From assembly GCF_001761465.1 (NCBI RefSeq), contig NZ_CP017479.1:3782001-3846000 (forward strand): a stretch of DNA of 64,000 bases, in the 5' to 3' direction. Positions within the stretch are counted from its first letter, which is position 1. Every line of letters begins with the position of its first letter. Both the position numbers and the translations under genes were made by a program. The stretch is from Flavobacterium gilvum (lineage in GTDB: Bacteria; Bacteroidota; Bacteroidia; Flavobacteriales; Flavobacteriaceae). Below are positions 37,052 through 57,998 of this stretch, piece after piece. Below the pieces are notes generated by a model. That model was not told the DNA's origin. It worked only from the letters and a program-made list of their open reading frames with translations, and did no database searches.

Positions 37052-37105
37052 AATCAATTTTTATATGAGAAACCAAGAAAAAAAATATTGAGAATACTGC
37101 TAACT

Positions 37106-38269
37106 TTATAATTTCGGAGCGGTCAATGCGTAAGCGCACCAAAGTACAGGAGCCTGTCCGTGCAAATCACCCGTTAAGCCTTCGCGTTTGCGATAATATT
37201 CGCTACTATTACCTATGTTGGTTCCCTCACAAACTTTGGTAACATCTCCTTTTTCATCAATATAGTTTGTTGTCAAGGTAATCCAAGCTTTTCGGGCTAC
37301 CGTTCCATATTCTTTTTCATTGAGCCACCCTTTTCTCACTCCCACTATCATGGCATAAGTAAACATCGCCGTAGATGAAGTTTCTTCCCACATGGTTTCG
37401 TCGTCAATAACCTGTCTCCACATGCCATCTGGCGCTTGATATTTTTTAAGAGTCGCCATCATTTTGAGATAAGCACTCATGATTTTTGGGCGGTCTGCAT
37501 TGTTTTCCGGCAATGCACGAAGCAATTCTGCCATTCCCACAGCCATCCATCCATTTCCTCTTCCCCAGCTGAAGTGTGCTGCCGGAGCATGATAAAATAA
37601 CCCATTAGGCAATTGAATTGAATCTAGATAGACTGTCATTTCTTTGGCCGCACGATTTAAATATTTCACATCTTTTGTAGCACGGAAAGCCTGCGCCTGA
37701 ATAGAAGTTATCATAAACATATCGTCTAACCAGATGCGGGTTTGCCAAGAATAACCTCCATCAGCCCATTTTTTTTCAGAAGCTTTTGCATCTTGCGGAA
37801 GCTCCCACTGGGTGTTGGCATAATGCATTCCCATGTCAAGATACTTCTGATTTTTTGTCTGCATATAAAGTTCCAAAGGAAGCGTTCCAAATACATTGTT
37901 GTCGACATGATTCGGTTTTGGCAACAAATTAGCTTCATTTGTAAATAATGGTTGGAAACGGGCTTCAAGCTTATTGAACAGTTCTTTGTTATTTGTTGCT
38001 TTTGTAAACCAAAACCCTCCAAGCCAGGTGCAAACATCAGGATACGTGATTTGTGGTGCAGGCAAATGCATCTTCAATGGGTTTCCGTAAGTGGAATGCG
38101 GACGCGATAAAAATCGTTCGGTTATTTGAACACCAACTTTCTCTGGATTGGCTTTTGCAGGAAAGTCTTTAAAATATTTTTGCTGACTATTTGCCTGTAA
38201 AACAAATAAAAAAATCAGTGCTTTTGCACATATAATTTGGTTAAAGTTTCTACTTCTTGTCTGTCTCAT
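37106..38269 (-). CDS. GH105-like unsaturated uronyl hydrolase
   Basis: Likely hydrolyses the 4,5-unsaturated uronic acid left at the non-reducing end by a polysaccharide lyase. The 387-residue chain has an N-terminal hydrophobic signal-like segment (ending ANSQQ) and an (alpha/alpha)6 barrel. Diagnostic blocks are WLGGFWF, WLDDMFM with Asp182-Asp183, and FSWGRGNGW at 233-241, followed by a WEETSSTAMFTYA helix. Family YteR/GH105 rather than GH88 is suggested by GRGNGW. Its presence predicts that a lyase acts on the same glycan. The toroid protein encoded 39 bases upstream is the best candidate. Confidence 0.85.
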   Translation of the reverse strand: MRQTRSRNFNQIICAKALIFLFVLQANSQQKYFKDFPAKANPEKVGVQITERFLSRPHSTYGNPLKMHLPAPQITYPDVCTWLGGFWFTKATNNKELFNKLEARFQPLFTNEANLLPKPNHVDNNVFGTLPLELYMQTKNQKYLDMGMHYANTQWELPQDAKASEKKWADGGYSWQTRIWLDDMFMITSIQAQAFRATKDVKYLNRAAKEMTVYLDSIQLPNGLFYHAPAAHFSWGRGNGWMAVGMAELLRALPENNADRPKIMSAYLKMMATLKKYQAPDGMWRQVIDDETMWEETSSTAMFTYAMIVGVRKGWLNEKEYGTVARKAWITLTTNYIDEKGDVTKVCEGTNIGNSSEYYRKREGLTGDLHGQAPVLWCAYALTAPKL

Positions 38270-42025: not shown

Positions 42026-45000
42026 TTAAAAATTCAAATTAACACCTAAGATAATACTGCGAGCCAAAGGGTATGAGCTACCATTGTCAACTCCTAAAGT
42101 AGCATCGTTGCTTTGATTTGCTTCAGGATTGTATCCTGGATAATCTTTGGTCCACATGGCCAAATTTTGCGATGTCAAATAAAAACGCATCGAATCAAAA
42201 GGTAATGATTTCATTTGTGGCAATGTATAACCAAAGGTTAAATTGGTAATTTGCAAGAACGATGCATCATGAAGATAACGAGTTGAGTTAGAGTTAGTAT
42301 CTGAATTAGAATTTGCAACTCTTGGCTCCATACCATTACCTGGATTTTGCTCAGACTGCCAACGATCCAATACATTGGTTCTTGGATTCACACTACCAAA
42401 GAATCTGAATTGATTACGATCGATAGCATACATGTTTTGACCGCCTTGAGAGCCACGCATAACAATATTCAAATCGAAATTACCATACTGGAATGTATTT
42501 ACAAATCCAAAAATGTATTTAGGTGCTGCTGTACCTAAATCCTGCATATCATTTACATCAACCTTACCATCATGGTTATAATCTTCGAATTTAACATCTC
42601 CCGGTTTCATTGGAGCAGCAGTCCATACAGGGCTGTTAGCTACATCTGCTGCATTCTGATATACGCCAATTTGTTTGTAACCCCATAATCTACTAATCGG
42701 TTGTCCTTCTTCAAGTTTGTATGCATTTAAGAAACCTTGGAACAAAGGAACATGATTCGCTAACTCTAATACTTTGTTTTTATTGAAAGTGATATTAAAA
42801 TTGGTTGTCCACTTTAATTTTCCTTCAAGGTTTCTGGTAAGAAGGCCAATTTCCAATCCTTTATTTTCCACGCTACCAATATTATCTAGTATACTCAAAC
42901 CAAATCCATTGATGGCAGGAATACCTTTGTTAAGCAACAGGTTGGAAGTAGTTCTCCTATACAAATCTGCAGTTAAAGCAATACGATTTTTTAGGAAACC
43001 AAGCTCCAATCCAATGTCAGTTTGTTGATTTTTTTCCCAGGTCAAGTTGTCATTAGACAAACCAGTAGGTATATAGCCATAGTTTATGGTACCATTACCA
43101 GTACCAAAGGTATAATTACCTGGTCCCATATAACTTTGCCATGCATAATCGCCAATGTTATAGTTTCCGGTTTCACCATAACTTGCTCTCAGTTTTAAAT
43201 CACTAATCCAATCAACGTTATCCATAAACTTTTCCTGTTTAACACGCCATGCGGCCGATACTGAAGGGAAATTAGCATATTTATTATTTGTTCCAAAACG
43301 AGAAGAACCATCCCTTCTGAAAGCTGCGGCTAGTATATATTTATCCTTGTAGGAATAATTTAACCTTGTGTACATTGAAATTAGATTGTTTCCTGTATAA
43401 AAAGAACTCGCTTTAATTTCTCCTGCACCACCTACGGTATGCACAGCATCACTTAAAAAAGTTCCAGACGTACCGGTTAGCGTTTCCATTGTAGATACAT
43501 TTTGTTGAGCAGAATATCCGGCTAGAACACTAAAATCATGATCTCCAATGGTTTTATCATAGGTGAAATAATTCTCTGATACCCAGTTCTGGTTCAGCCC
43601 CACTTGTCGTTGCGCTGCTATAGCATTAAGGTTAGGATTGGTAATTGTTGCTGTATTAAAAGCTGCCCTACCTAAAGTTGAAGGGGTAAAAATATTACGG
43701 CTTAAATTACTGTTCATAAAACCAAAAGTGGTTTTAAATTTCAGCCCTTCTATAATCATAAACTCTAAATAAGAGTTTCCAAGTAACGTAACCGTTTTGG
43801 TTTTGTCTTCGTAAAGATCGATAATAGCCACTGGATTGGTAAAATTTGGCGAAAATCCTGAGTAAACTGGGTCAATAGATGGTTGTCCATAATTACCATT
43901 AGCATATTTTACAGGATATAATGAAGGCATCATCAAAGCATTTCCTAAAACACCATAAAATCCACCCAATGAACCAGTAGCGCCAGAAGTGGCTTCAGAT
44001 CCACTACCATTAGTATCTTTGTCCGTATTTATTGCATAAGAAGGCATAAATGAAACCCCTACCTTAATTCGCTTACTTAAATCGGCATCAAGATTAGCCA
44101 TTAAATTAAAACGCTCATAACCTGTACCTTTTACAATACCATCTTGAGATAAGTGTCCACCAGAAACAGAATATTTTACAGCATCAGATCCTCCACTTGC
44201 ACTCAACTGATAACTATACTGCATACCATTTCTAAATATCTGATCCTGCCAGTCGGTATCTGGTAAATTGGCAGCTGGGTTTGCATAAGCAGGTGGTATT
44301 GGCAACCCCTGATTGGCGTACCCTTCCTTCATATAATCAATCAACTGTTTAGTATTTAATACAGATACTTTATTAAGTGCTTGTTGACTACCAGCATAAG
44401 AGTTAAAAGAAAATTTGGTTTTGCCTTTAGTTCCTCTTTTGGTTGTAACGATTACAACTCCATTACCTCCTCTTGAACCGTAAATAGCTGCAGATGCCGC
44501 ATCTTTTAACACTTCAATTGATTGAATGTCTTGAGGACTAATTAGGTTAAAGGTTGAACTATCAGGTAGTGGAAAACCATCTACCACATACAAAGGTGAG
44601 TTTCCGGCAGTGATAGAGCCTGTACCTCTTACCCTGATTACGGGAGCACGACCAGGTGCACCATTCGTTCCTACTACTGTTACCCCTGCTACCTGACCTG
44701 CTAATGCAGCACCAGGGCTAGTTACAGGAAGATCTTTAATTTGCTTACTAGATACTGCAGAAACAGCGTTGGTCAACATTTTCTTCTTTTGATTTCCATA
44801 ACCAACTACAACGATTTCGTTTAAAGTGGAAGCATTTTCCTGCAAAGTAATTGTAATTGATGACTGACCATTAACTTTAATGTCTTGGGTATTAAAACCC
44901 AAAAAGCTAATCTCTAGTGTTGCGTTTTTATTTTCAACCGATATGGAAAATTTACCGTCAAAATCTGTTTGTGTACCATTTTTAGTTCCTTTCTCCAGGA

Positions 45001-45457
45001 CATTAGCTCCAGGCAAAGGCAGTCCTTTTTGATCGAGCACTCTTCCTGATACCACAATTTTTTGTTGGACAGTAGTTGTAACAACCTTCGGTTTTTCTTT
45101 AATTATAACGGTATTATTTTTACCGATAACAATATCAATATTAGCGTTTGATAGACTCTGTCTTAAAAGATCATTTGCCTCTACAGTGCCTTTTTTTACA
45201 TCTACTTTTGGAAGCCCTTTGAATATACCTTCTTCATAGAAGAATTTATAATCAGTTTGTTCCATAATTAGATCAAAGACCTCATCTACTGACATTTTTT
45301 TATCTTCTTTGACCTGTATTTTGACATGTTGTGACAAAACATGTCCAGGGGTCAAAGCAAACAGCGTAGTGCAAAACAAGAATATGAATGCTCTCATAAT
45401 ATTTTTCATAAGCCATTTTCCGGAGAGAAAATAGGTATTGGTTAGTTTTATTTCCAT
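42026..45457 (-). CDS. SusC/RagA-family TonB-dependent glycan transporter with STN domain
   Basis: Outer-membrane importer, 1143 residues. A signal peptide (ending HVLSQ) is followed by an STN (secretin/TonB N-terminal) domain at about 45-125, which contacts FecR-type anti-sigma factors. A carboxypeptidase-like CNA-B domain follows at about 132-215 (VVSGRVLDQKGLPLPGANV). Then comes the SusC signature VVVGYGNQKKK, the plug (RVRGTGSITAGNSPLYVVDG, GSRGGNGVVIVTTKRG) and a 22-strand barrel. The C-terminal SIILGVNLNF ends in Phe as expected. The STN domain, with the FecR gene immediately upstream, indicates that ligand binding triggers transcription through the ECF sigma factor. Confidence 0.95.
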   Translation of the reverse strand: MEIKLTNTYFLSGKWLMKNIMRAFIFLFCTTLFALTPGHVLSQHVKIQVKEDKKMSVDEVFDLIMEQTDYKFFYEEGIFKGLPKVDVKKGTVEANDLLRQSLSNANIDIVIGKNNTVIIKEKPKVVTTTVQQKIVVSGRVLDQKGLPLPGANVLEKGTKNGTQTDFDGKFSISVENKNATLEISFLGFNTQDIKVNGQSSITITLQENASTLNEIVVVGYGNQKKKMLTNAVSAVSSKQIKDLPVTSPGAALAGQVAGVTVVGTNGAPGRAPVIRVRGTGSITAGNSPLYVVDGFPLPDSSTFNLISPQDIQSIEVLKDAASAAIYGSRGGNGVVIVTTKRGTKGKTKFSFNSYAGSQQALNKVSVLNTKQLIDYMKEGYANQGLPIPPAYANPAANLPDTDWQDQIFRNGMQYSYQLSASGGSDAVKYSVSGGHLSQDGIVKGTGYERFNLMANLDADLSKRIKVGVSFMPSYAINTDKDTNGSGSEATSGATGSLGGFYGVLGNALMMPSLYPVKYANGNYGQPSIDPVYSGFSPNFTNPVAIIDLYEDKTKTVTLLGNSYLEFMIIEGLKFKTTFGFMNSNLSRNIFTPSTLGRAAFNTATITNPNLNAIAAQRQVGLNQNWVSENYFTYDKTIGDHDFSVLAGYSAQQNVSTMETLTGTSGTFLSDAVHTVGGAGEIKASSFYTGNNLISMYTRLNYSYKDKYILAAAFRRDGSSRFGTNNKYANFPSVSAAWRVKQEKFMDNVDWISDLKLRASYGETGNYNIGDYAWQSYMGPGNYTFGTGNGTINYGYIPTGLSNDNLTWEKNQQTDIGLELGFLKNRIALTADLYRRTTSNLLLNKGIPAINGFGLSILDNIGSVENKGLEIGLLTRNLEGKLKWTTNFNITFNKNKVLELANHVPLFQGFLNAYKLEEGQPISRLWGYKQIGVYQNAADVANSPVWTAAPMKPGDVKFEDYNHDGKVDVNDMQDLGTAAPKYIFGFVNTFQYGNFDLNIVMRGSQGGQNMYAIDRNQFRFFGSVNPRTNVLDRWQSEQNPGNGMEPRVANSNSDTNSNSTRYLHDASFLQITNLTFGYTLPQMKSLPFDSMRFYLTSQNLAMWTKDYPGYNPEANQSNDATLGVDNGSSYPLARSIILGVNLNF

Positions 45458-45610: not shown

Positions 45611-46789
45611 TTATCTTATTATTAATGTTTTATCTTTCATTTCATAGTTATTAATTGTAGTTGACTTCATAATTGATAAAATTTCTTTAAGGGATTGTTT
45701 TTTATCAAGACTCCCTTTAAATTCTACTGATTCCAGATTTTTATTTTCAAAAATCACATCTACATCATACCATCTGGAAATAACTTTCATTATTTCTTTT
45801 AAAGATTTTCCTTTGAAAGCAAAAACACCATCTTTCCATGATATTTCATTATAAACATCAACCGTTTTAATCTTTGAAGTATTATTTTTAATATCAAGAT
45901 TTAATTGTTCGTTTGGAACTAACTTTTGTTTTTTACTTTCAATCTCAACATTGACTTTTCCTTTTACAAGAGTCGTATAGATATTTGCCTCGTCTTTATA
46001 AGCTTTTATGTTGAATTCAGTTCCTACAACTTCCACTTTTTGCTTCATGTTATACACTTCAAAATGTGCTCCTTTATGTTCTGTACTCGGAGACACTTCA
46101 AAATAGGCTTCACCATAAACCAATTCCACTTGTCTAGTTTTTCCTTCTACAAATGCAACAGGGAATTTCAATTGAGATTCAGAATTCAGCCATACTTTTG
46201 TACCATCTGAAAGTTGTATAGTAAATTGTCCCCCCCTCGGTATTGTCAAATAATTATAAACTACTTTTGATACATCCTGTTTATTTGCATCATAAACAAT
46301 CTCTTTACCATTGCTTTTTGCATTTTGTGTTTTTACCGAAACGCCTTTTTCCAAAACAACAACTTCTCCATTCCCCAATGTTAGTGTAGCTTTATCTGTA
46401 CCTGGATTAATATTCTCAATATTGCTCTTAACTATTTCGGGAGAAATTTTGATCGGCTCATTAGATATGCTTTTATTTTTGAGAAAAAAAGTTGTAGCCA
46501 TAAGAGAAACTACAATTGCTGCTGCAACATATTTAAACCAAGGTCTTTTAACTATTGTTATAACGGGCTTATCGTTTCTTTCGTGAAACTTTGCCTTTAT
46601 CGATTTCCATGCTTTTTTATTATCAACTTCAGGAAGCCTATCTATTTTATCTACTAATTGATCTATTTTAACTTCTTTTAAAAAAGAATATTTCTCTTTA
46701 AAGCCTTTTAATTCTAATTTTTCAGAATCGGTCAAGGCTTTTAATTTTCTTTTTATAAGAAGTTCCGAAATTTTAAAAACATCTTTCAT
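45611..46789 (-). CDS. FecR-family anti-sigma factor
   Basis: Inner-membrane regulator that holds the partner ECF sigma factor until the STN domain of SusC signals. From the ATG at 46789 (MKDVFKISE) it has 392 residues: a cytoplasmic helical N-terminus, a membrane segment at about 88-106 (YVAAAIVVSLMATTFFL), the FecR domain with LTIPRGGQFTIQLSDGTKVWLN and GEAYFEVSP, and a C-terminal DUF4974/STN-like domain (SLKEIMKVISRWYDVDV). It lies between the sigma gene and susC on the same strand. Confidence 0.93.
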   Translation of the reverse strand: MKDVFKISELLIKRKLKALTDSEKLELKGFKEKYSFLKEVKIDQLVDKIDRLPEVDNKKAWKSIKAKFHERNDKPVITIVKRPWFKYVAAAIVVSLMATTFFLKNKSISNEPIKISPEIVKSNIENINPGTDKATLTLGNGEVVVLEKGVSVKTQNAKSNGKEIVYDANKQDVSKVVYNYLTIPRGGQFTIQLSDGTKVWLNSESQLKFPVAFVEGKTRQVELVYGEAYFEVSPSTEHKGAHFEVYNMKQKVEVVGTEFNIKAYKDEANIYTTLVKGKVNVEIESKKQKLVPNEQLNLDIKNNTSKIKTVDVYNEISWKDGVFAFKGKSLKEIMKVISRWYDVDVIFENKNLESVEFKGSLDKKQSLKEILSIMKSTTINNYEMKDKTLIIR

Positions 46790-46980
46790 CTTACGGGTTT
46801 TATTATAGAACAACTAAGATTGAAAAAGGTACTATCGAAAAATCATTTTTTTTTGAAAAAAATTACAGGAAAGAAAATAAAAACCAAACTTTAATGAATT
46901 AACACCACAAAATAGGTAAAAACACTTACTAAAAAGAATAGCGATTAAATGTTTTTCTAAAGAATATTTATTTTTTATGG

Positions 46981-47502
46981 TTAAACCAATAAAAAATAAA
47001 TAATTGAATCCATCGCTTTAAATTGGTCTCTTAATATTTTATAAGACTGAGTTTTTAATGTCTTAACCGTTTGAAGCTGAATCCCAAGTTCATCAGCAAT
47101 TTCAAGGTTTTTAAGTCCTTTAAGACTTAATTTTATAATTTCTTTTTTTCGCTGAGGCAAAATATCAATTGCTTTGTGTAGTTGGTAAACGATATCTTCT
47201 TCGAGCATTTGTTTTAAAAATAAATCATCATCCTCTAATGATTGTATGCTATTTTCGGCATATTTATTTTTTACAAGTTTATGCTTAATAACATTGTAAC
47301 ATTTGTTTCGAACTGCTTTGTATAGATATACTTTTAAATAGATTTCATCCTGAAAAAGATTTTCTTTTTCCCAAAAATCCACAAAAATATCTTGAACTAA
47401 ATCTTCGCATTCATCAATTGTGTCCAAAAATCGATTAGCGTATTGTACAAGGGGTCTATAATATTCATTAAATATTTTTTTTATATCTTTTTTATTGACC
47501 AT
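46981..47502 (-). CDS. ECF sigma-70 factor (FecI-like) of the PUL
   Basis: A 173-residue sigma factor likely dedicated to susC-susD and perhaps the enzyme genes. Region 2 spans about residues 12-75 (YANRFLDTIDECEDLVQDIFVDFW) and region 4 about 115-165 (LPQRKKEIIKLSLKGLKNLEIADELG). The ATG at 47502 is preferred over an in-frame TTG 18 bases upstream. Gene order sigma - FecR - SusC (STN) - SusD is the classic trans-envelope signalling arrangement. Confidence 0.93.
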   Translation of the reverse strand: MVNKKDIKKIFNEYYRPLVQYANRFLDTIDECEDLVQDIFVDFWEKENLFQDEIYLKVYLYKAVRNKCYNVIKHKLVKNKYAENSIQSLEDDDLFLKQMLEEDIVYQLHKAIDILPQRKKEIIKLSLKGLKNLEIADELGIQLQTVKTLKTQSYKILRDQFKAMDSIIYFLLV

Positions 47503-48107
47503 ATACTTCTGTGCAACCAAAATTTTTAGCTAATTAATTTTAATTTTTTCGCAAAGTAAAAAAATAAATTGAATATTGGATATGCAAATAAAAACTATGG
47601 GATTGAATTAGTTGAAAACAACAAATCTTTCCAAAATTAAACATAAAAACCCCACATAATCACAGATTTTTTTTCAACCTGAGTTCGATTAAATAGATCA
47701 TAAAACTTTTTTCAAATTACTCATATAGATTGATGTTCTTGCAAGATTCTTTTTCGAGACTTTGAAGAAATTGTTACAAAACTACAGGTCGCTCCTATGG
47801 AGCTTTATGTTGGTGATAATCCTATTTTCTACAAACATTACGCTCCTAACGGAGCTTGATAATACTAATTTCATCAAAAAGAAAGCCACAGAGTGGCGAA
47901 ATGTTTATAGAAATTAACAATTAGTTGACGATTCGGAGCTCCGTAGGTGCGAAATCGCAATTCCTAATAATAAAAAGATAAGTGTTTATGCTTAAAATCA
48001 GGTTTCTATTAAATTTAAAGTAATGGATTATAAGTAGTTAGCTCTATATTAATAATTGAACTCAGGTTATTAATTTCAAGCCAATCTATCCAGACCGGTT
48101 AATTTGC
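47503..48107. other. Intergenic region rich in GGAGC-type palindromic repeats
   Basis: A 600-base gap. Between 47785 and 47965 it contains several self-complementary units: GCTCCTATGGAGC, the 30-base repeat at 47828-47857, AAGCCACAGAGTGGCGAAATG, and GGAGCTCCGTAGGTGCGA. These look like a composite dispersed repeat. No gene seen. The promoter of the sigma gene must lie at its left end. Confidence 0.55.
47828..47857. repeat. Dispersed 30-bp repeat, copy 2
   Basis: Matches 31051-31080 at 29 of 30 bases. Here it is embedded in a longer run of GGAGC/GCTCC palindromes (about 47785-47965). Confidence 0.65.
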
Positions 48108-48923
48108 TTAGCAATATCTATTTTTTAAGAACTTCATCATATAGGCATTTACTTCCCATTGATTGCTAATTGGCATATTGTTATCCGGTAAATGAACCAT
48201 ATATGGATAAGGTCCAAATTCAGCCGTTATGGTAAGTTTTTCATTTGCTTCTTTCTTTCTCATTACAACCTTGTCCCACCAAGCCAAATGAGCATCTACC
48301 GCGTGTTGCCACTCTGGTATACGTGGATCTGGAATTTGTGGCCCTTCGGGATAACCAACCCGTGCATGAATATGATCTGTTCGTTCAATAGCTAATTGCA
48401 TGGCTTTTGTTTGGTCTTCCAAAAACGATTCGGCTACACATACCCAATGCGAAGCATCGAGGGTAATTTTTAATTCAGGTGTCTTTTCTAAATACTCTTT
48501 GGAAACATGCGCCGCAAATAAGCATTTATTGCGATGCGTTTCATGAGCCACTAGAATACCAGTCTTTTTTGTAAACCGAAAAGCCTCATTTATTAATGAA
48601 CCGTTTTGCTCAAAACTATAAAAATCCCTTCCGGTTTGCGAATCGATTTTTACACATGGGTAGTTACTAATTTTTTCGAACCAAGTACCATACAAATCAA
48701 AATGCTTAGAAAATTCGGCATCACCACTTTCAAAAAACTGTGCAATAATTTTTAAGTTATTCTGTTCTACAATGTTCCAAATATTATCCAACTCCTTTTC
48801 GGTCACATTATTAGCGATAGCATACTCGATACCGTCATACCCTTCCTGTTTTACTTTTTGACAAAAGGTTTCCCAGCTTAACAATTCGCTTCCCCAACGA
48901 GGACAAAAAAAATCTATTTGCAT
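48108..48923 (-). CDS. Xylose isomerase-like TIM-barrel sugar isomerase/epimerase
   Basis: A cytoplasmic 271-residue protein of the AP endonuclease 2/xylose isomerase-like superfamily. Candidate divalent-metal ligands sit at the usual strand ends: Glu128 in VAHETHR, Asp156 and His159 in TLDASHW, His186 in HIHARVG and Glu235 in ITAEFGP. The start ATG gives the expected first strand IDFFCPRWG. It lies 240 bases downstream of the oxygenase fusion on the same strand. In rhizobial rhizopine (moc) clusters an isomerase-like protein, MocC, accompanies the MocDEF oxygenase, so this gene may process the oxygenase product. Substrate unknown. Confidence 0.8.
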   Translation of the reverse strand: MQIDFFCPRWGSELLSWETFCQKVKQEGYDGIEYAIANNVTEKELDNIWNIVEQNNLKIIAQFFESGDAEFSKHFDLYGTWFEKISNYPCVKIDSQTGRDFYSFEQNGSLINEAFRFTKKTGILVAHETHRNKCLFAAHVSKEYLEKTPELKITLDASHWVCVAESFLEDQTKAMQLAIERTDHIHARVGYPEGPQIPDPRIPEWQHAVDAHLAWWDKVVMRKKEANEKLTITAEFGPYPYMVHLPDNNMPISNQWEVNAYMMKFLKNRYC

Positions 48924-49163: not shown

Positions 49164-51434
49164 CTAAAATTCATCAAATGCGATTTGGCTGTCATTTACA
49201 CCAAAATTTTTAAGCACATCTGAACAGGCTTTGATCATCATCGGTGGACCACAGAGATAGAACTCAACGGCTGACAAGTTTGGATGCGACTTTAAATAGT
49301 TACTTTCCACCACCGAGTGAATATACCCCCTATGCCCCTCCCACTTAGCATCATCAGGCAAATCGTCTGACAGTGCTGCATGAAATTGAAAATTTTTGAA
49401 CTCCCTGCTGAGATTACGAAAGTAGTCAACATAAAAAAGTTCCTGCTCCGATCTTGCACCATACCAATAAGTTATGGTTCGCGAGGTATTAAGCGTTTCA
49501 AATAAGTGCGAAATATGAGATCGAAGTGGTGCCATTCCTGCACCGCCACCAATATAAACCATCTCTTTTTGTGTAGGTTTGATATCAAAATCTCCAAAAG
49601 GTCCCACAGCCGAGATAACTTCACCGGGCTTTAAGTTAAAAATATAACTAGAACCTCTTCCCGGTGCACAATCCTGCCCCACAGGAGGTGTGGCAATACG
49701 TACATTAAATTTCAACAGCTGATTGCTACCCGGATTTACAGCCAGAGAATAATTATTCTTGCTAACTTTTCCCTCAGTATTTTCAACAACGAGGTCAAAC
49801 AAATTGTGCGTCTCCCATACAGAGCGATATGGCTCAGGAATGTCAAAATTTCTAAATTCAATCAATTCATATTGCGGTATCTCTATTTGTAAATAGTTAC
49901 CTGCTTTAAAAACGATTTCTTTCTCAAGAGGTTCAATCACCAATTCCTTAATAAAAGTAGAAACATTCTCATTGCTTACCACTTTAAATTTCATCTGCTC
50001 AGGTTCAACAATACCGCTGCCTCCGGGCGATTCTATATCCATGTATATTTTGCCCTCCTTTAGTTCTACTGGATAAGTTCGCAAGCCCTGACAAATTGGA
50101 GCACGAGCAGGAGAACCATCCGCTAGATTAAACCTTCCATTGTGTTTAGGACATTCTATTTGGCCTCCTTTTACCAAGCCTTCGGCCAAATGCGTATTGC
50201 CGTGTGTACAGATACCATCGGTGGCATAATATTTTCCATCAGCAGCACAACTGATTGCAAAAGTCTTATTGCCAACATCAAAACGAACTACTTCTTCACG
50301 GGAAAGATTCGATGCATCGCATACCTCATGCCATCCGTTTTGCGTTTTATGATCACTTTTGAAAACGAGGTTATTGGCTGGATGATGAGCTGGTCGCTCA
50401 GGAAGTATTCTTTTGACATAATAAGAAGGATCCTTTCTTTGCTTTAGCAATGCAGGAATAATTTCTTTCCATGCCGAAATAATACTTGGGTATGGAGAAG
50501 GCATTTCGTCTTTAACCAACTCATGCAACCTTGGCAATGCATGATATGGCACCAAGGGAAACATGTGATGTTCTGTATGATAATTCATGTTCCAGTATAG
50601 AAATCTGTTAAGGGCATTCATATATACCGTTCTGCAATTAAGACGATGATCGAGCACGTTCTCTGCTAATCCTGCGTGTTGCGTCAAGCCGTAGATTGGC
50701 ATCAACCACGCACCGTAGATATTTGGCAAGCCAATAAGTAATAGAGGAATAATAGTTTTAAAATAGATTGAAACACCTATTACCAATAGGTATATCAAAA
50801 GTGTAATGCGTGCCCTGCTGTAAATCTTTTTAAACTCGCTGGCAGGAATGAATAATTTTTCGCTTTCTGACATTTGTCCACAAGCATGATGAACCATTTG
50901 ACAGAAGTAGCCAGGAATGCTATCTAGGTTAATGAATATCCCAAACAAAGCACTCAGTTTAGCGGGACGTGGCGAAACAATCTCTGGATCCCTCCCTACA
51001 ATAATGGTATCGCTATGATGCCTGTTATGACTCCATCTCCAAACTACTGATTCCCGCATCACCATAAATGATGCAATTTCATACAGCCAGTTATTCATCC
51101 AGTCTGTCTTAAATGCTGTACCATGGCTCGACTCATGCCATCTTGAATCTGATGTGGTGCCATAAATAATTCCGTACAACATAAAAGCAATTACGGATAC
51201 CCATGAAAACCAATAATAGATACCCACGGCTGCAAATGTAATCATCAGCCCAAACCAAATAACAGTATCCCTGATTGCAGGTCCGTTTTTTCTTTTTAAC
51301 AAGGCGCGCATTGTTTCTCTCGGCACATAACAAGTGTACCAATCTGCCTCAGCAAGACCTTTCTCAATTGCTTTGGCTTCATTTTCCTTAGTAATCCTGT
51401 ATGCAGGATTTGATGTGTGTATGGATAAACTCAT
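49164..51434 (-). CDS. Fused di-iron membrane oxygenase - Rieske ferredoxin - NqrF-like reductase (MocDEF-like)
   Basis: A self-sufficient oxygenase of 756 residues in one chain. Residues 1-320: a fatty-acid-desaturase-type membrane domain with histidine boxes HESSH (100-104), HNRHH (136-140) and HTEHH (286-290). GLTQHAGLAENVLDHRLNCRT resembles rhizobial MocD. Residues 360-470: a Rieske domain, Cys409-x-His411 and Cys428-x-x-His431. Residues 480-756: an FAD/NAD(P)H reductase like the C-terminal part of NqrF, with NYSLAV at 561-566, GGGAGMAPLRSHI at 629-641 and YLCGPPMM at 726-733. NqrF's own plant-type ferredoxin is replaced by the Rieske domain. In Sinorhizobium, separate MocD, MocE and MocF serve catabolism of O-methyl-scyllo-inosamine. 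Here I infer O-demethylation or hydroxylation of a PUL-derived sugar. A lipid desaturase is the alternative. Confidence 0.85.
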   Translation of the reverse strand: MSLSIHTSNPAYRITKENEAKAIEKGLAEADWYTCYVPRETMRALLKRKNGPAIRDTVIWFGLMITFAAVGIYYWFSWVSVIAFMLYGIIYGTTSDSRWHESSHGTAFKTDWMNNWLYEIASFMVMRESVVWRWSHNRHHSDTIIVGRDPEIVSPRPAKLSALFGIFINLDSIPGYFCQMVHHACGQMSESEKLFIPASEFKKIYSRARITLLIYLLVIGVSIYFKTIIPLLLIGLPNIYGAWLMPIYGLTQHAGLAENVLDHRLNCRTVYMNALNRFLYWNMNYHTEHHMFPLVPYHALPRLHELVKDEMPSPYPSIISAWKEIIPALLKQRKDPSYYVKRILPERPAHHPANNLVFKSDHKTQNGWHEVCDASNLSREEVVRFDVGNKTFAISCAADGKYYATDGICTHGNTHLAEGLVKGGQIECPKHNGRFNLADGSPARAPICQGLRTYPVELKEGKIYMDIESPGGSGIVEPEQMKFKVVSNENVSTFIKELVIEPLEKEIVFKAGNYLQIEIPQYELIEFRNFDIPEPYRSVWETHNLFDLVVENTEGKVSKNNYSLAVNPGSNQLLKFNVRIATPPVGQDCAPGRGSSYIFNLKPGEVISAVGPFGDFDIKPTQKEMVYIGGGAGMAPLRSHISHLFETLNTSRTITYWYGARSEQELFYVDYFRNLSREFKNFQFHAALSDDLPDDAKWEGHRGYIHSVVESNYLKSHPNLSAVEFYLCGPPMMIKACSDVLKNFGVNDSQIAFDEF

Positions 51435-51576: not shown

Positions 51577-53538
51577 TTAATTAGTCCAAACTTTTATCTT
51601 TTGCTTTCCTGTGCTTAAAATTTCAAAAGGTCCAGGAGATGGATTGGCAACATTGCGTTTATTGCCCAAGTAATCTTTATCAATTTTTAACTCAGAACCA
51701 TCAGGGTTTTCGAAAGGCGCATTGGAAATACTAGCTTTACCTAAAACAGATGACGTCATCAATTTTCTTTTTTGTTCCAGCCAGCTTTTATCCAGCGTTA
51801 TTTCCAAGTACACTTCATTTTTTTGTACTGACAAAGTATTGGCTGCGTCAAATTCATTTTTAACAAGGGCATTAGTTTCTACAGCGTCTTGCTCTTTGTA
51901 TTTTTTCATCACCTCTTCCATATCTTTTTTCACCTCTCCCATTCTCCTTTTTTCTTTTAAACCAATGGCTCGAACAGATCCTTTCGTGTATATATTCCCA
52001 TCAAAGCGTACTGGCAACAGGGCACTACTGTACTGACTTACATCACTTCCATTTACAAACAGGTTATTGATAAACTGTGTTTCTCCACTCGGATTATCGT
52101 GAAGAGCCACTATGTTTGTAGAATGGGGTAAATGCCAAGGTGTTTGGCGGCTGTCATAAAACAATACAGTGAATTTTCCGCCAAAAATATTGTGTCCAAA
52201 AACGGTTCCTTGTGAATTCATTAAAACACTTTCCTTTGAAAGCGAAATATTATTACTCACCAAAGCAGGCCCATGACTCACTTCTATAAAAAGATCTGCT
52301 TGACTATTGTCATGCAACAGATTGCCTTTTACCTGTACCCCCTGCGCCATCCAATCGAGCCATATCCCGAAGCAACCTGTGTTGTAGATATGATTATTAC
52401 TGATGATGCCATCAATGAAGCCGTGGAATTTGATACCGGCCATTTCGTAGCCGCTGAAGGCATGACGCACATGAATATCATGAATCTCATTGCCCTCCAC
52501 AATCGAGAACGCACAGCCCATGCTGCCCACCACAGCGTTTTGCTCGCAGTGGTGTATGTGGTTGTTGCGCACAATGTGAGTACCGACCGTTTCTTTGTTC
52601 CAACCATTTTTAAGGGCTTTATCAATGGTGGTGGTGTAAACTTGTGAGTTGTTACCGGCAAAGTTGTCGCCTTGGTCGAGATACTTCCCAAGTGCAACAC
52701 CGGCGCAAACGGTATAAGAAATCTCGTTATTTTCGATAATCCAGCCCTTGTTCCAATAAGCGGAAATGATACCAATCTGTCCAGCTGTAGGCGGTGCCCA
52801 GTTGGTGGCTGCCTGGGTAAGCTTGAATCCACGCACTGTGATGTAGTTGATACCCGCTTTGGTGGGACTGAAGACCGTTGGACGCACCGCAATCTCTACA
52901 TTCTCTTTATTAGGGTCAACGCCCTTGAATTGAGCCCAGATGGTTGTGGGAGCATTGGCGTCGTCCTTGCCTTTGTTGGGAGCCATGGCAAACCAGCTCC
53001 CTACATTTTCAGAGGGAGTGAGTACTTGCTTTTCGCTATAAACCTCGCGAAGCCAATCGCCGTTAAGATAGACAGAAGCGGTGTGGTTGGGACGATCCAT
53101 GGAAATAAAATAATCGCCATGCACTAAGTCGGCAAAGGGGTTGTAGTCTCCGAAAAATTTGGCTGGAAGGATGGTTTTCCAGGTGTCGTTGTCAACCTTC
53201 TCCCAATTTTTGACTGGTTCAGCACCTGTAATAACAACTTTCTCGCCCTTGGCAGCTTGGTAGGTAATGCGGTGAGCATTGTCCGTACCTCCACGCGGCG
53301 GATTGACCTGTTCCCTATATACACCAGCATGAACCGTAATCACATCTCCGGGCATGGCTTTATTGGCAGCAGCCATAATGGTTTTTAATGGTTTGTTTAA
53401 CGATCCGTCGTTTGCATCTTTTCCATTCACAGATACATGGTATTCCTTCGGATGTGGAGTTTTGTCACTATCTGATTTGTCCTTTCCAAAAGAAGCAAAA
53501 GTTGTTAATGTAACCAGCAGGGCAATAATTTTTTTCAT
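51577..53538 (-). CDS. Secreted right-handed parallel beta-helix protein (paralogue 2)
   Basis: Probable PUL enzyme, 653 residues from the second ATG, with a signal peptide (ending TTFASFG). Same plan as the other two copies: DUF1565-like start (EYHVSVNGKDANDGS), then beta-helix coils with GIKFHGF, IWLDWMAQG and EVSHGP. A helical insertion of about 45 residues, rich in Lys and Glu (KEKRRMGEVKKDMEEVMKKY), follows the helix near residue 540 and is absent from the other two. The coding sequence is compositionally mosaic: about 52360-53350 is much more GC-rich (sampled lines 48-57%) than the 3' part (32-38%). The next upstream gene is paralogue 3. Confidence 0.8.
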   Translation of the reverse strand: MKKIIALLVTLTTFASFGKDKSDSDKTPHPKEYHVSVNGKDANDGSLNKPLKTIMAAANKAMPGDVITVHAGVYREQVNPPRGGTDNAHRITYQAAKGEKVVITGAEPVKNWEKVDNDTWKTILPAKFFGDYNPFADLVHGDYFISMDRPNHTASVYLNGDWLREVYSEKQVLTPSENVGSWFAMAPNKGKDDANAPTTIWAQFKGVDPNKENVEIAVRPTVFSPTKAGINYITVRGFKLTQAATNWAPPTAGQIGIISAYWNKGWIIENNEISYTVCAGVALGKYLDQGDNFAGNNSQVYTTTIDKALKNGWNKETVGTHIVRNNHIHHCEQNAVVGSMGCAFSIVEGNEIHDIHVRHAFSGYEMAGIKFHGFIDGIISNNHIYNTGCFGIWLDWMAQGVQVKGNLLHDNSQADLFIEVSHGPALVSNNISLSKESVLMNSQGTVFGHNIFGGKFTVLFYDSRQTPWHLPHSTNIVALHDNPSGETQFINNLFVNGSDVSQYSSALLPVRFDGNIYTKGSVRAIGLKEKRRMGEVKKDMEEVMKKYKEQDAVETNALVKNEFDAANTLSVQKNEVYLEITLDKSWLEQKRKLMTSSVLGKASISNAPFENPDGSELKIDKDYLGNKRNVANPSPGPFEILSTGKQKIKVWTN

Positions 53539-53614
53539 AATCAAATAAGTTTTTTTGGAACGATGCTTTATCTTTTTTAAACGCGAGTATAATTTTCTAA
53601 ATACAGCTTGATTT

Positions 53615-55447
53615 TTACCAAACCTTTATTTTCTGTATGCCATTATTCTTTATTTCAAAAGGTCCAGGTGACGAGTTTGTTTCTAAGCGTTTTGCACCGT
53701 TGTAATCTTTATTAATAATCAGTTTTGTTCCATTTGCATTTTCAAAAGGAAGATTAGGAACAAATGCTTTTCCTAAATTATCCGTAGAAACAAGCGTTCT
53801 TTTCCCTTCTGTTGCCAGCGATTTATCCAAATTGATTTCCAAATACATTCCGTTTTTTTCGGTCAATAATTTCACATTGGCATCAAAATCAGGTTTCAAA
53901 ATATTGTCTTTATCAAAAACGGACATTTCACTATCTTTTAGATATACATTTCCTTTGAAAACCATTTCTAATTCTGCCTTATCATATCCTTTTGAACTTC
54001 CTCCATTCACAAAAAGGTTGTTCACAAAACGAACGTCTCCGCTTCTGTTATCCACAATATCCACAATTTCGGTAGAATGTGATTTGTGATAAGGTGTTTT
54101 TCTTTGCTCACCTTGAATCACATTAAATTTTCCGCCAAATAAATTGTGCGCAAATGCTGCTCCACTGGAATTCATCAATACATTTTCTTTTGAAAGAAAT
54201 ATATTATTATACATTGTCATCGGACCGTGATCGACTTCTAAAAACAAATCTTGACGAGTATTTTCATACATCAAATTGTTAGCTACAACAGCACCTTGTG
54301 CCATCCAATCCAACCAAATACCTCTATCCGCACGGTAAATTTGATTCCCAATAATTTGAACATCTATCGCTCCATGAAACTTAATTCCAGCCTGTTCTGC
54401 ACCGTCAAACAATCTTATGATGTTTATATCATGAATTATATTTCCTGTAATCGTACTAAAAGAGCACCCCATACTTCCCACAATTCCGGTTTGTTCGCAA
54501 AAAGCAATTGTATTGTTACGAACAATATGACTACCAATGTTGTCTTTATTCCATTTGTTTGCCAAAGCACGATTGATCGTTCCGTAATACGATTCTGTGG
54601 TCCCTTCTTCTTTATCCCATTCATCGCTATATTTTCCAAGAGCTACTCCAGAACATTTTGAATAGCTAATATCATTGTTTTCAATAATCCAACCTTTACT
54701 CCAGTTAGTTCCTATCAAACCTTTTTGTCCATCAGTTGGCGGTGCCCAATTCGTAGCAGCATGACACATCGTAAAACCTTTAACAGTAATATAATTTACA
54801 AATGCTTTTTTTGGATAAAAAATAGTCTCTCGGGCATTTACCTCAATCAATTCTTTGTTTGGATCTACACCAATAAACTGTGCATAAATTATTGTATTTT
54901 GGTTATCCACTTCGGCAAACCAAAGCGGATCATTTGTTTTAGCTTTTGTTAGGACTTCCTCTTTTTTTTCAGCTTCCATCAGCCATTTTCCATTCAGGTA
55001 CACACATCCTGTATGATCTATTCTGCCTTTTTTCGGCCAAAACCAATCCCCTTTTATCTGAATATTAAATGGATTATGATTTCCAAAAAAAGTATTTGGC
55101 ACAACCGCTTTCCAAGTATCATTTTCAAGTTTTGTCCATTTTTTGACTACTTCAGAACCTTTAACAATAACCTTTTCCCCTTTTGCAGCTTGATACGTAA
55201 TGCGTTTTGTTTCTGAAGTTCCTCCAGTTTCCGGCTCGATACTTTCTCTATAAGTTCCCGCATGAACCGTAATCACGTCTCCTGGTTTTGCCACTTTTGC
55301 AGCAGCAGAAATCGTTTTAAAAGGTTTCTCTTTTAAACCTTTATTGGCATCACTTCCACTGGTCGCTGAAACGTGGTATTCTGTTTGAGCTGTCGCCACT
55401 ACCGTTATGCAAAAGGCGAAGAGTATCGTTAAAACTGTTTTTTTCAT
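53615..55447 (-). CDS. Secreted right-handed parallel beta-helix protein (paralogue 3)
   Basis: A 610-residue member of the same group, with a signal peptide ending VATAQ, a DUF1565-like N-terminus (EYHVSATSGSDANKG), a beta-helix with NNTIAFCEQTGIVGSMGC, GIKFHGAID, GIWLDWMAQG and EVDHGP, and a C-terminal Pro-Gly-Pro-Phe-Glu block before the end (SSPGPFEI) shared by all three. AT-rich throughout, like the genome background, so it may be the native copy. Three paralogues in one PUL suggest related linkages at different positions of a branched glycan. Enzyme family not assigned. Confidence 0.8.
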   Translation of the reverse strand: MKKTVLTILFAFCITVVATAQTEYHVSATSGSDANKGLKEKPFKTISAAAKVAKPGDVITVHAGTYRESIEPETGGTSETKRITYQAAKGEKVIVKGSEVVKKWTKLENDTWKAVVPNTFFGNHNPFNIQIKGDWFWPKKGRIDHTGCVYLNGKWLMEAEKKEEVLTKAKTNDPLWFAEVDNQNTIIYAQFIGVDPNKELIEVNARETIFYPKKAFVNYITVKGFTMCHAATNWAPPTDGQKGLIGTNWSKGWIIENNDISYSKCSGVALGKYSDEWDKEEGTTESYYGTINRALANKWNKDNIGSHIVRNNTIAFCEQTGIVGSMGCSFSTITGNIIHDINIIRLFDGAEQAGIKFHGAIDVQIIGNQIYRADRGIWLDWMAQGAVVANNLMYENTRQDLFLEVDHGPMTMYNNIFLSKENVLMNSSGAAFAHNLFGGKFNVIQGEQRKTPYHKSHSTEIVDIVDNRSGDVRFVNNLFVNGGSSKGYDKAELEMVFKGNVYLKDSEMSVFDKDNILKPDFDANVKLLTEKNGMYLEINLDKSLATEGKRTLVSTDNLGKAFVPNLPFENANGTKLIINKDYNGAKRLETNSSPGPFEIKNNGIQKIKVW

Positions 55448-55541: not shown

Positions 55542-56948
55542 TTATTTGATAAATAATGATTCTATTTCTTCCAATGATTTTGCTTTGGTTTCTTTTACTT
55601 TCATCCACATATATACAAAAGCCAACACACATATAATTGCATAAACAAACATTGTTATTGCAGTGCCCAACTGTTTTGTCATTATCGGGAATGTTAATGT
55701 CACAGCAAAATCAGCTAGCCATAACGAAAGTGTTGCCACAGACAACGCCATGCTTCGAACGAGGTTCGGAAAAATTTCTGAAAGATATACCCATACCACA
55801 GCACCCAGCGTACACCCAAACGAAGCCACATACAATAACATAAAAACCAAAACAATGTAATGATCAAAATATTTAAATTGAAAACAAAGTCCGACAGCTA
55901 CCAATGAAACACACATCATTATACAACCTACAAGCAACATCTTTTTTCGACCCACTTTATCCACTAATAGTATCGCCACAAAAGTAGCCAGCACATTTAC
56001 CACGCCTATAGCGATTGTTTGCAAAAATGGCGAAGAACCGTTTGCTGAAATTTCTTTAAAAATAACTGGAGCATAATAAATAATAGAGTTAATACCCGTT
56101 ATTTGTTGGAACACCGCCACCATGATTCCAATAATCATAACTGGTCGATAGGTTTTACTAAAAAGTTGTTTGATCGAAATTTTATTTTCGGAATAAAAGC
56201 TTTGTTCGATTTCTGCCACTTCCTGCTCAATCGATATGCCCTCCGAAATTTTCTCAAGAATTTTTTCTGCCTCTTTTTTTCTTCCTTTCATAATGAGCCA
56301 TCTTGGCGTTTCGGGCACGGCGAGCAACAACAGAAAAAACACAATTGATGGAGCCGCCTGAGAAGCAAACATCCAACGCCAGCTATTGGCCCCTAAATCC
56401 GAAAACATATAATTGGAAAAATAAGCCAACAGAATCCCTAATACAATCGCCATTTGATAAAAAGCAACCAATCGTCCTCTCCATGTTGGGGGCGCAATTT
56501 CGGCAATATACATAGGTGAAACCATCGCAGCTGCACCCACACCAAGTCCGCCTATCAATCGATATAGTATAAATGAATATAATTCTGTCGAAAGTCCCGC
56601 ACCAATACCTGATACTGCAAAAAGAACTGCACAAATCATGAGCGTAACACGTCTACCTAACTTATCTGCAAGAACTCCCGCAATCATAGCTCCAAAAGCA
56701 CAACCTATAAGTATGGAACTAACAGACCAGCCAAGCATATATTCATCCAGTTTGAAGTAAGTTGTGATATAAGGAATAGCTCCTGATATAATAGCAGTAT
56801 CAAATCCAAAAAGCAGCCCGCCTAGAGCGGCTACGAAACTGACCAGAATAATGAAACTTAAATTTCCGGATTCAGTAAGTCGCTGTTCATTTGTTAAAAC
56901 AATTGCGGATTCATCACCGCCGGTTGCATGTGGTTGGTTTGGTATCAT
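55542..56948 (-). CDS. MFS sugar porter
   Basis: A proton-coupled monosaccharide importer of the inner membrane, 468 residues with twelve predicted membrane segments. Sugar-porter signatures: LGGLLFGFDTAIISGAI in helix 1, DKLGRR after helix 2, GGLGVGAAAMVSPMYIAEI in helices 4-5, PETPRWL at mid-protein, QQITGINSIIYYAP in helix 7 and DKVGRK after helix 8. The ATG at 56948 (MIPNQPH) is preferred. It is divergent from the AraC gene and probably brings the monosaccharides released in the periplasm into the cytoplasm. Confidence 0.92.
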   Translation of the reverse strand: MIPNQPHATGGDESAIVLTNEQRLTESGNLSFIILVSFVAALGGLLFGFDTAIISGAIPYITTYFKLDEYMLGWSVSSILIGCAFGAMIAGVLADKLGRRVTLMICAVLFAVSGIGAGLSTELYSFILYRLIGGLGVGAAAMVSPMYIAEIAPPTWRGRLVAFYQMAIVLGILLAYFSNYMFSDLGANSWRWMFASQAAPSIVFFLLLLAVPETPRWLIMKGRKKEAEKILEKISEGISIEQEVAEIEQSFYSENKISIKQLFSKTYRPVMIIGIMVAVFQQITGINSIIYYAPVIFKEISANGSSPFLQTIAIGVVNVLATFVAILLVDKVGRKKMLLVGCIMMCVSLVAVGLCFQFKYFDHYIVLVFMLLYVASFGCTLGAVVWVYLSEIFPNLVRSMALSVATLSLWLADFAVTLTFPIMTKQLGTAITMFVYAIICVLAFVYMWMKVKETKAKSLEEIESLFIK

Positions 56949-56972
56949 AGTTGTATATATTATTGGTTGAGC

Positions 56973-56980
56973 CAAAAATA
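56973..56980 (-). promoter_or_regulatory. -7 box (TATTTTTG) of the MFS gene
   Basis: The minus strand reads TATTTTTG, an exact TAnnTTTG match, 25 bases upstream of the MFS ATG. It overlaps one arm of the inverted repeat at 56979-57006. Confidence 0.45.
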
Positions 56981-57006
56981 GAAACACATTATTATAATTG
57001 TTTCTA
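56979..57006. promoter_or_regulatory. Candidate operator: TAGAAACA-12-TGTTTCTA
   Basis: A perfect 8-bp inverted repeat with a 12-base spacer lies in the divergent promoter region between the MFS and AraC genes and touches the MFS -7 box. Position and symmetry suit a dimeric regulator such as the adjacent AraC-type protein. Confidence 0.45.
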
Positions 57007-57110: not shown

Positions 57111-57998
57111 ATGCAACCATTAATTCAGCGATTATTATCTAATAATTCCAATTCTTTTTTAGCAAGAACATTTCGTACACCCCATTTTGAAGTTGGCTGG
57201 CATCAGCATATCGAATATGAATTAATTCTTTTTACAGAAGGATCAGGCATCAGTTTTATTGGTAATCATGTAGGTGAATTTGAAACAGGTGATATTTATT
57301 TCATTGGTTCGAACCTTCCACATACATTTCAAAAAAACGGCAATCAGGTTGCCAGCGCAGTAGTCGTACAATTTAGAGAAGACTTTTGGGGCAAAGATTT
57401 TATGCAAATACCAGAGAATCGTGAACTCAAGAATTTATTTGATTCATCTATATTGGGGATGAAAATAAATAGGGAATGTAAACAGTTATTAACACCAATT
57501 ATTAAAGAGCTTGAATACGCCGAGGGAGTAAAACGTATTTTACTCTTACTCGAAGCTCTTTCTCTACTTGCAACTAAGAAAGATAACATTATTCTTTCTA
57601 CTCAAATAGCCAAAGAGTACAATAAAAAAGACATGGATGTTCTGGACAAAATAATCCAATTTACTATTTCTTCATATCGCGAACAAATTTCACTTTCAGA
57701 TACTGCAAAAATTGCCTGCATGAGTGTACCATCTTTTTGTCGAAATTTTAAACAAAGAACAAAGAAAACCTATAATGGGTTTTTGAACGAAATACGTATT
57801 GCCAATGCCTGCAATCTTCTATCAGAAACAAACAAACCGGTTTTGGAAATTTGTTATGAAAGTGGCTATACTACATTGGCAAATTTTCACAAACAATTTT
57901 TGAAAATAAAAAATATTACCCCTCTACAATACAGAAAATTGTTCTCCCCTGAGAATATTCGAAAAGGAACCAACATTGGTATTAATGAAGTAAAATAA
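57111..57998 (+). CDS. AraC-family transcriptional regulator with cupin sensor domain
   Basis: A 295-residue cytoplasmic regulator. Residues about 20-105 form a cupin-like sugar-sensing domain (HQHIEYELILFTEG, GDIYFIGSNLPH). Residues about 185-285 are the double helix-turn-helix: ISLSDTAKIACMSVPSFCRNFKQ, then RIANACNLLSETNKPVLEICYESGYTTLANFHKQF. It is the only plus-strand gene next to the PUL and is divergent from the sugar porter, so it probably activates the porter and possibly the beta-helix genes in response to a monosaccharide. Confidence 0.92.
   Translation: MQPLIQRLLSNNSNSFLARTFRTPHFEVGWHQHIEYELILFTEGSGISFIGNHVGEFETGDIYFIGSNLPHTFQKNGNQVASAVVVQFREDFWGKDFMQIPENRELKNLFDSSILGMKINRECKQLLTPIIKELEYAEGVKRILLLLEALSLLATKKDNIILSTQIAKEYNKKDMDVLDKIIQFTISSYREQISLSDTAKIACMSVPSFCRNFKQRTKKTYNGFLNEIRIANACNLLSETNKPVLEICYESGYTTLANFHKQFLKIKNITPLQYRKLFSPENIRKGTNIGINEVK

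Follow-up and report, generated by a model that had tools for sequence, protein, structure and literature searches.

A one-gene oxygenase-Rieske-reductase fusion in a Flavobacterium glycan utilization locus is a candidate O-demethylase of methylated sugars

The Flavobacterium gilvum DNA analyzed here, a stretch of 64,000 nucleotides of contig NZ_CP017479.1 (positions 3,782,001 to 3,846,000; the window, hereafter), carries on its minus strand, at 49164..51434, a gene whose single-chain product combines a membrane oxygenase of the MocD di-iron type with a Rieske ferredoxin resembling MocE and a reductase of the NqrF type, and which we regard as encoding a candidate O-demethylase of methylated sugars. 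Its open reading frame (ORF) starts with ATG, encodes 756 amino acids without internal stops, and is the sole gene of its kind in the 4.40-Mb genome, two weaker partial matches lying elsewhere. The oxygenase domain (residues 1 to 345; 50400..51434, minus strand like the two other domains) contains two hydrophobic membrane stretches and the boxes HExxH, HxxHH, and HxxHH (HESSH at 100, HNRHH at 136, and HTEHH at 286), and its Pfam match to FA_desaturase (residues 77 to 320, E 1.7e-34) completes the MocD-type signature. The Rieske [2Fe-2S] ferredoxin domain (residues 368 to 467; 50034..50333) carries the CxH...CxxH pairs as CTH at 409 and CPKH at 428, with a Pfam Rieske match at 368 to 455 (8.8e-18) and, over the whole domain, a score against the NCBIfam model MocE_fam_FeS (TIGR02377) of 118.7 bits, below the cut-off of 136.15. 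The FAD/NADH reductase domain (residues 480 to 756; 49164..49997) passes the NCBIfam NqrF cut-off over its full length (TIGR01941; 326 bits against 295), includes Pfam NAD_binding_1 at 628 to 738 (6.2e-15) with the motifs GGGAGMAP at 629 and CGPPMM at 728, and has NqrF chains (PDB 7qty, 2r6h, and others) as its nearest solved structures.

In an alignment of 13 fusions, neither the three His boxes nor the two Rieske C/H pairs vary, and the His boxes remain unchanged even in a set of 45 oxygenase domains whose identity goes down to 25%. AlphaFold2 (AF2) gave a predicted local distance difference test score (pLDDT) of 84.3 for the oxygenase domain alone (45 sequences) and a poor model of the whole protein (64.8; 13 sequences). 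A Foldseek search with the oxygenase model returned, at E < 1e-3, two chains of chloroplast FtsHi motor complexes at 13% identity, with chain identities not stated, and no desaturase or alkane hydroxylase was named among the best 50 of its 74 matches; thus, little was learned from the fold search.

The fusion gene lies in a minus-strand row consisting of a major facilitator superfamily (MFS) sugar porter (XylE-like; 55542..56987; Pfam and NCBIfam), likely the first gene of the operon, two beta-helix proteins resembling glycoside hydrolase (GH) family GH120 (53615..55447 and 51577..53544; Pfam), the fusion, and a xylose-isomerase-like TIM barrel protein (48108..48923) whose Pfam match, AP_endonuc_2, falls below the cut-off (26.6 against 31.1). 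The successive gaps are 94, 70, 142, and 240 bases, and an AraC-family regulator (57111..57998, plus strand; Pfam) is divergent from the row. Beyond the TIM barrel gene, and again on the minus strand, come an extracytoplasmic function (ECF) sigma factor (46981..47520; Pfam and NCBIfam), a FecR-type anti-sigma factor (45611..46813; Pfam), a SusC-type TonB-dependent receptor (42026..45457; Pfam), and a SusD-type surface glycan-binding protein (40560..42008; Pfam). These are followed, still on the same strand, by a GH88 family hydrolase (37106..38269), a SASA-type carbohydrate esterase (35600..37057), a PhyH Fe(II)/2-oxoglutarate dioxygenase (34091..35071), two GH38-like alpha-mannosidases (31353..34043 and 28202..30931), a GH38 alpha-mannosidase (24894..27815), a GH76 alpha-mannanase-like protein (23483..24913), a GH95-type glycosidase (18623..20833), a second SASA-type esterase (17656..18480), and a third GH120-like protein (15729..17645), assigned not from Pfam but by its clustering with the other two and its 79% identity to a gene of a related Chitinophagaceae locus, L004. 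Pfam gave no match for the 616-amino-acid protein encoded at 38308-40158 (minus strand), of which L266 has a very similar paralogue (1215 bits; 352-2190) close to another copy of PhyH. As a guess, a set of GH38, GH76, GH120, and GH95 genes would suit a methylated glycan bearing mannose and xylose, for example the O-methylated N-glycans of microalgae treated in the cited passages of PMC6344472.

A preliminary description of this DNA had proposed one 756-residue chain of oxygenase, Rieske, and NqrF-like reductase parts, a self-contained electron chain, and a setting inside a SusCD-type polysaccharide utilization locus (PUL). The intact frame, the Pfam and NCBIfam domains, and the conserved motifs bear out the first of these, the presence of all three parts on a single chain the second, and the paired SusC and SusD genes with glycosidases nearby the third.

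The relation to rhizobial MocD-MocE, also claimed there, holds at about 50% identity. MocD-MocE gene pairs matching residues 1 to 470 of the fusion occur in 277 plasmid records, of which 239 come from Rhizobium, Sinorhizobium, or Ensifer; the best plasmid matches are 49 to 52% identical (about 50% over residues 3 to 467), and against R. etli and Acidiphilium plasmid proteins the oxygenase part is 53 to 55% and the Rieske part 44 to 47% identical. On R. etli p42e, a reductase gene comes after the pair, and genes for a LacI regulator and a TIM barrel protein lie alongside; from this layout we infer that it is the mocDEF locus of PMC3538637, which, in the cited passages, adjoins a fixV homologue and a pfam01261 gene and is tied to L-3-O-methyl-scyllo-inosamine catabolism. 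A cited passage of PMC10107442 likewise lists mocDEF among the genes required for this catabolism. The likeness stops at the reductase: the third genes beside MocD-MocE in p42e and in Acidiphilium pACMV1 encode Pyr_redox_2 plus Reductase_C proteins, and the fusion has an NqrF-type domain in place of the Pyr_redox_2-type reductase that MocDEF membership calls for. In Paenibacillus cellulosilyticus, the gene at the corresponding third place matches putidaredoxin reductase, and a Paenibacillus ferredoxin (L021) passes the TIGR02377 MocE cut-off with 145.6 bits. By family assignment, the fusion reductase is therefore not MocF, the third rhizobial gene being of the unrelated Pyr_redox_2 family, and the protein combines an oxygenase and a ferredoxin akin to MocD and MocE with an NqrF-family reductase that is not homologous to MocF. 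Of the earlier title, "MocD-MocE-MocF-type", the MocD-type oxygenase and the MocE-like Rieske part stand and MocF falls, the reductase being NqrF-like as the text under that title already had it. The fusion is no ordinary NqrF either: the profile is matched from position 129 only, beyond the N-terminal 2Fe-2S ferredoxin domain, and the neighbors are glycan genes instead of an Nqr operon. The fusion would function like MocDEF, yet it falls outside MocDEF by its reductase. Among unfused MocD relatives in Bacillota, a Gfo/Idh/MocA marker, itself supplied by one of the loci (L020), was found in 13 of 25 loci.

The fusion architecture extends beyond the window locus, and its reading frame is not a chance one. 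One genome scan yielded 53 related loci, 12 of them with all three parts, in Chitinophagaceae (1), Winogradskyella (4), Mucilaginibacter (1), and metagenome-assembled genomes (MAGs) of Verrucomicrobiota (5, one Opitutaceae) and Acidobacteria (1). Full-length matches occurred in 3 of 395 genomes of a phylum sample (Bacteroidota; mostly two candidates per genome scored) and in 6 of 299 genomes of a family sample (Flavobacteriaceae), the window genome being counted each time. Within Verrucomicrobiota, a relative at E < 1e-60 was present in 28 of 337 genomes at 33 places, one of which is the Opitutaceae locus L011; 27 of the other 32 are fused (L219 truncated), and four (L240 to L243) are two-part oxygenase-Rieske fusions. 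Altogether, 47 fused loci were examined, the window included and L219 being the truncated one. A tree of 95 oxygenase domains gathers all fusions, 46 complete and one truncated, into a single clade (support 100/99), placed as sister to the proteobacterial MocD group with a support of only 93/47. Verrucomicrobiota make up the majority of the rows of this clade, the rarer Bacteroidota are scattered over several separate places, and the window fusion pairs with that of L004 (100/100). One fusion event is the simplest reading of the single clade, and the scattering of the Bacteroidota rows suggests that the gene may have moved between lineages by transfer. The GC content is 40.5% for the fusion gene, 37.6% for 15729-57998, and 34.8% for the remaining window, differences that would fit acquisition by transfer.

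The genes around the fusions were tallied as the three nearest genes at 42 nonredundant loci (126 genes; 124 proteins after omission of two long ones; the near-copies L008, L009, L018, G456, and G392 left out) and compared with 115 control proteins from 20 regions chosen by hand in seven carrier genomes. The nearest neighbors included AraC regulators (12), aldose epimerases (6), MFS_1 transporters (4), aldo/keto reductases (AKR; 4), and sugar porters, Gfo/Idh/MocA proteins, rhamnosidase C-terminal domains, and creatininases (3 each), families that each occurred at most once in the controls; for AraC, 12/124 against 1/115 gave a Fisher p of 0.003. The three creatininases, and all but one of the four aldo/keto reductases, come from L006, G671, and G395, which share one set of genes, and the control regions do contain glycan genes (GH43, 2; sulfatase, 2; TonB plug, 2). 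Apart from GDSL hydrolases (2/124), no fatty-acid or phospholipid family appeared among the 25 commonest of the 102 neighbor Pfam families, the remaining 77 having at most one member each. This bears on the possibility that the fusion is a fatty-acid or membrane-lipid desaturase or hydroxylase present in the locus by chance, a reading which the Pfam FA_desaturase match would favor and which we consider very improbable given these neighbors, the operon-like arrangement in which a sugar porter and GH120-like genes precede the fusion at gaps of 70 to 240 bases, and the recurrence of the fusion, TIM barrel, and GH120-like genes together in L004. The preliminary description had named homologues beside lipid genes and outside PULs as the finding that would speak against it; the lipid neighbors were not found, and most fused homologues do lie without a detected SusCD pair.

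The partner genes vary among fused loci. Rhamnosidase-like genes flank the Mucilaginibacter fusion on both sides, an RhaT-type symporter and GH2 accompany that of G608, and the four Winogradskyella loci, G671, and G395 share SusCD, aldo/keto reductase, and creatininase genes, with KduI in all except G395. This variation suggests one chemistry applied to different sugars. The window TIM barrel protein is 78% identical to that of L004, 47% to that of G608, and 38% to a protein beside MocD in Microbulbifer; the grouping of the Zobellella locus L015 with it was discarded, as BLAST gave no match and the initial clustering had taken antisense ORFs in this GC-rich genus. Two other observations concern Verrucomicrobiota. 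A protein of about 300 amino acids is encoded directly downstream of the fusion in seven loci (L215, L217, L221, L226, L229, L235, and L236), and a representative had no Pfam match and a weak hydrolase match (E 0.007). In the Opitutaceae MAG, a RACo-type corrinoid activator follows the fusion directly (L011:12317-13948); RACo-type proteins serve corrinoid methyltransferases, O-demethylases included, and two demethylation chemistries may stand side by side there.

The most informative relative is L004. Its fusion is 89% identical to that of the window and adjoins TIM barrel and GH120-like genes in the same way; the PhyH (78%), GH120 (58 to 81%), GH95 (82%; 82 to 84% for the window gene at 18623..20833), and GH38 (79%, gene at 24894..27815) proteins are also close, and SASA is common to both loci. 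These best pairs span 58 to 89% with the fusion included, and only part of the window glycan genes was found in the L004 stretches fetched. Between PhyH and the fusion, L004 carries on one strand an alcohol dehydrogenase (ADH), an esterase, FdhD, and an FdhF/YdeP oxidoreductase. FoADH (8H2A, 497 bits) and ZoADH (8H2B, 475 bits), which belong to cytochrome P450 demethylation loci, are the closest relatives of this ADH. According to the cited passages of PMC10033563, the FoADH and ZoADH genes are located next to those for an esterase and for the P450 with its redox partners, and deletion of the ADH, in Zobellia, impairs growth on 6-O-methyl-galactose and leaves growth on galactose unaffected. 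The analogy with the P450 route, which the preliminary description had drawn, thereby gains direct support from the ADH-esterase pair shared by L004. The same pair bears on a second possible function, in which the fusion would be a C-H hydroxylase of a sugar or sugar acid, using the same electron chain and yielding a hydroxylated or keto sugar. The fold family of the oxygenase is generally known to hydroxylate or desaturate many substrates, and Gfo/Idh, epimerase, TIM barrel, and AKR neighbors would suit any odd sugar; nevertheless, the pair in L004 and the service of the nearest studied relatives in O-methyl inosamine catabolism (cited passages of PMC3538637) make this reading unlikely. A demethylase is the most likely function, a sugar hydroxylase the second.

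Among 397 genomes of the window's family, the Flavobacteriaceae, the ADH was found at E < 1e-120 in 40, and the 20-kb regions around it (L143 to L182) all contain the esterase (40/40). Clusters of P450, ferredoxin, and reductase, with each family named from one member, occur in 27 of the 40, and 14 of these 27 pass a strict haem-site pattern; PhyH of the window type occurs in 11, both oxygenases in 3, neither in 5, and the fusion was seen in none of the 40. The five regions with neither within 20 kb (L151, L162, L171, L175, and L180) may hold yet another demethylase. The AraC regulators of these loci are 27 to 36% identical to that of the window, among the matches listed. The 11 PhyH proteins are 53 to 70% identical to the window PhyH and directly adjoin the ADH-esterase pair in 10 regions (among them L143 and L146, at about 70% identity). 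Their presence in 11 of 40 regions greatly exceeds what random placement would give, about 0.0005 per region, a crude figure which ignores the clustering of glycan genes. Window-type PhyH genes overall occupy 44 places in 41 of the 397 genomes, and the window genome has two more copies (G000:C1:1322006-1322947 and 2581754-2582671; L266 and L267), 74 to 75% identical and each within three genes of a SusC. PhyH-family enzymes of the PHYHD1 type demethylate 2'-O-methyl nucleosides, in the cited passages of PMC12709175, and the window PhyH is a second candidate demethylase of the same locus. It could even be the methyl-sugar demethylase of the locus, the fusion acting elsewhere, e.g., on O-methyl inositol or at a second methyl position. 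The adjacency to the ADH-esterase pair and the precedent of PHYHD1 point that way, as do the presence of both genes in L004 and in the window and the three regions with P450 plus PhyH; the role of PhyH is compatible with the fusion being a demethylase as well, and the porter and TIM barrel genes stand in one row with the fusion, not with PhyH. We consider this division of labor improbable, somewhat more so than a sugar hydroxylase.

We propose, with a probability of roughly 0.68, that the fusion removes the O-methyl group of a methylated sugar as a membrane-bound enzyme of one chain that depends on NADH and O2; the proposal is based on its domain make-up, its conserved ligands, its kinship with MocD-MocE, the operon-like layout, and the locus partners. 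Oxidative O-demethylation of a sugar, the function first put forward for this gene, is thus still the best-supported one. The proposed mechanism is the following: glycosidases and esterases of the SusCD locus would release the methyl-sugar, which the MFS porter would import; in the cytoplasm, NADH would reduce the FAD of the NqrF-type domain, and electrons would pass through the Rieske [2Fe-2S] cluster to the di-iron site; this site would activate O2 and hydroxylate the O-methyl carbon, the resulting hemiacetal collapsing to free sugar and formaldehyde; and the adjoining TIM barrel protein would probably pass the sugar into catabolism.

Several points weigh against this proposal. That MocDEF itself demethylates rhizopine is a 1998 model, which stands in none of the cited passages. 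The oxygenase alignment, used as a profile against the PDB, matched no solved structure at E up to 1, and no assay of a fused member was found in the literature searched. Of the 47 fused loci, some ended by the contig, L004 is the only one with the ADH-esterase pair at no more than 9 kb from the fusion; the window genome contains no close copy of the L004-type ADH or FdhF and thus lacks the pair that marks P450-type loci, and a DNA search of this genome with the L004 ADH-FdhF stretch, which by itself says little, returned nothing. Three more of the 11 carrier genomes checked encode an ADH of 53 to 63% identity, on contigs other than that of the fusion (in Mucilaginibacter together with the esterase and near a SusCD pair), and seven lack it. 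The role of the L004 FdhF/YdeP protein as a formate dehydrogenase is not assured, and the L004 esterase scores far under the cut-off for S-formylglutathione hydrolase. The cited passages of PMC10033563 report no formaldehyde-detoxifying activity for the ADH, so that its presence is a sign of such loci but no proof that formaldehyde is released. Most fused homologues seen belong to Verrucomicrobiota, and no SusCD pair was detected with them. A sugar marker lies within 9 kb in 19 of the 42 nonredundant fused loci, with markers derived partly from these same loci; of the 27 Verrucomicrobiota loci that supplied none, 8 have a marker at a distance of up to 9 kb and 6 at up to 4.9 kb. In the 12-kb control regions the count is 1 of 20; the contrast is weak, the marker set is narrow, and the other Verrucomicrobiota loci stay unexplained. 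Two earlier ideas were abandoned. One, that the ADH is a formaldehyde dehydrogenase, was dropped in view of the same PMC10033563 passages. The other, that fusions are regularly accompanied by genes for formaldehyde handling, was dropped because ADH, esterase, FdhD, and FdhF were found within 9 kb only at L004 among the 47 loci, the sole other such marker being an FdhD-like gene (151 bits) in the vicinity of L227.

Sugars that carry methyl ethers, such as those of algal glycans, are blocked from catabolism. The one demethylation route that we found described for glycan users is that of the P450; among the literature titles searched, with subscription journals mostly outside the search, none dealt with a fused MocD-Rieske-NqrF protein or with MocD or PhyH in glycan loci. 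A tentative view, to which we give slightly less than even odds, is that glycan-degrading bacteria have no fewer than three unrelated oxygenases (P450, PhyH, and the di-iron fusion) by which sugars are freed of their methyl ethers, that the ADH-esterase pair is an auxiliary module common to any of them, and that the fusion travels between phyla as one self-contained gene because it needs no redox partner from the host. If the one-gene demethylase is real, it would be an enzyme independent of partner proteins and a marker for methyl-sugar use in Verrucomicrobiota, where 28 of the 337 sampled genomes have a relative. The ADH-esterase pair beside different oxygenases offers a handle for finding further demethylases, and its co-location offers a way to ask what the ADH does, a question left open in the cited passages of PMC10033563.

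Compared with known systems, the fusion resembles MocDEF in its oxygenase and Rieske parts and in the TIM barrel gene near the cluster in R. etli and Acidiphilium, and it differs in being a single chain where MocD, MocE, and MocF are three separate genes, in its NqrF-type domain where the rhizobial cluster has a Pyr_redox_2 plus Reductase_C gene, and in its surroundings, MocDEF having a LacI gene alongside and two plasmid regions being without glycan-degrading genes. With NqrF of the Na+-pumping NADH:quinone reductase, it shares a third domain that passes the family cut-off and is 42 to 51% identical to long NqrF-like matches in the phylum sample, whereas the N-terminal 128 positions of NqrF are unmatched and the reductase sits behind oxygenase and Rieske domains. 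The P450-ferredoxin-reductase demethylase by which porphyran users act on 6-O-methyl-galactose has in common with it the glycan-locus setting and, in L004, the same ADH-esterase pair, but its oxygenase is unrelated and its three proteins are separate. The PhyH-type Fe(II)/2-oxoglutarate O-demethylases (FJS/PHYHD1) likewise carry out, in the cited passages of PMC12709175, oxidative O-demethylation of a methylated sugar unit, but they belong to an unrelated family in which 2-oxoglutarate replaces the reductase chain. Altogether, the distance of the fusion from known systems is moderate: its parts are known, and its architecture and setting are new.

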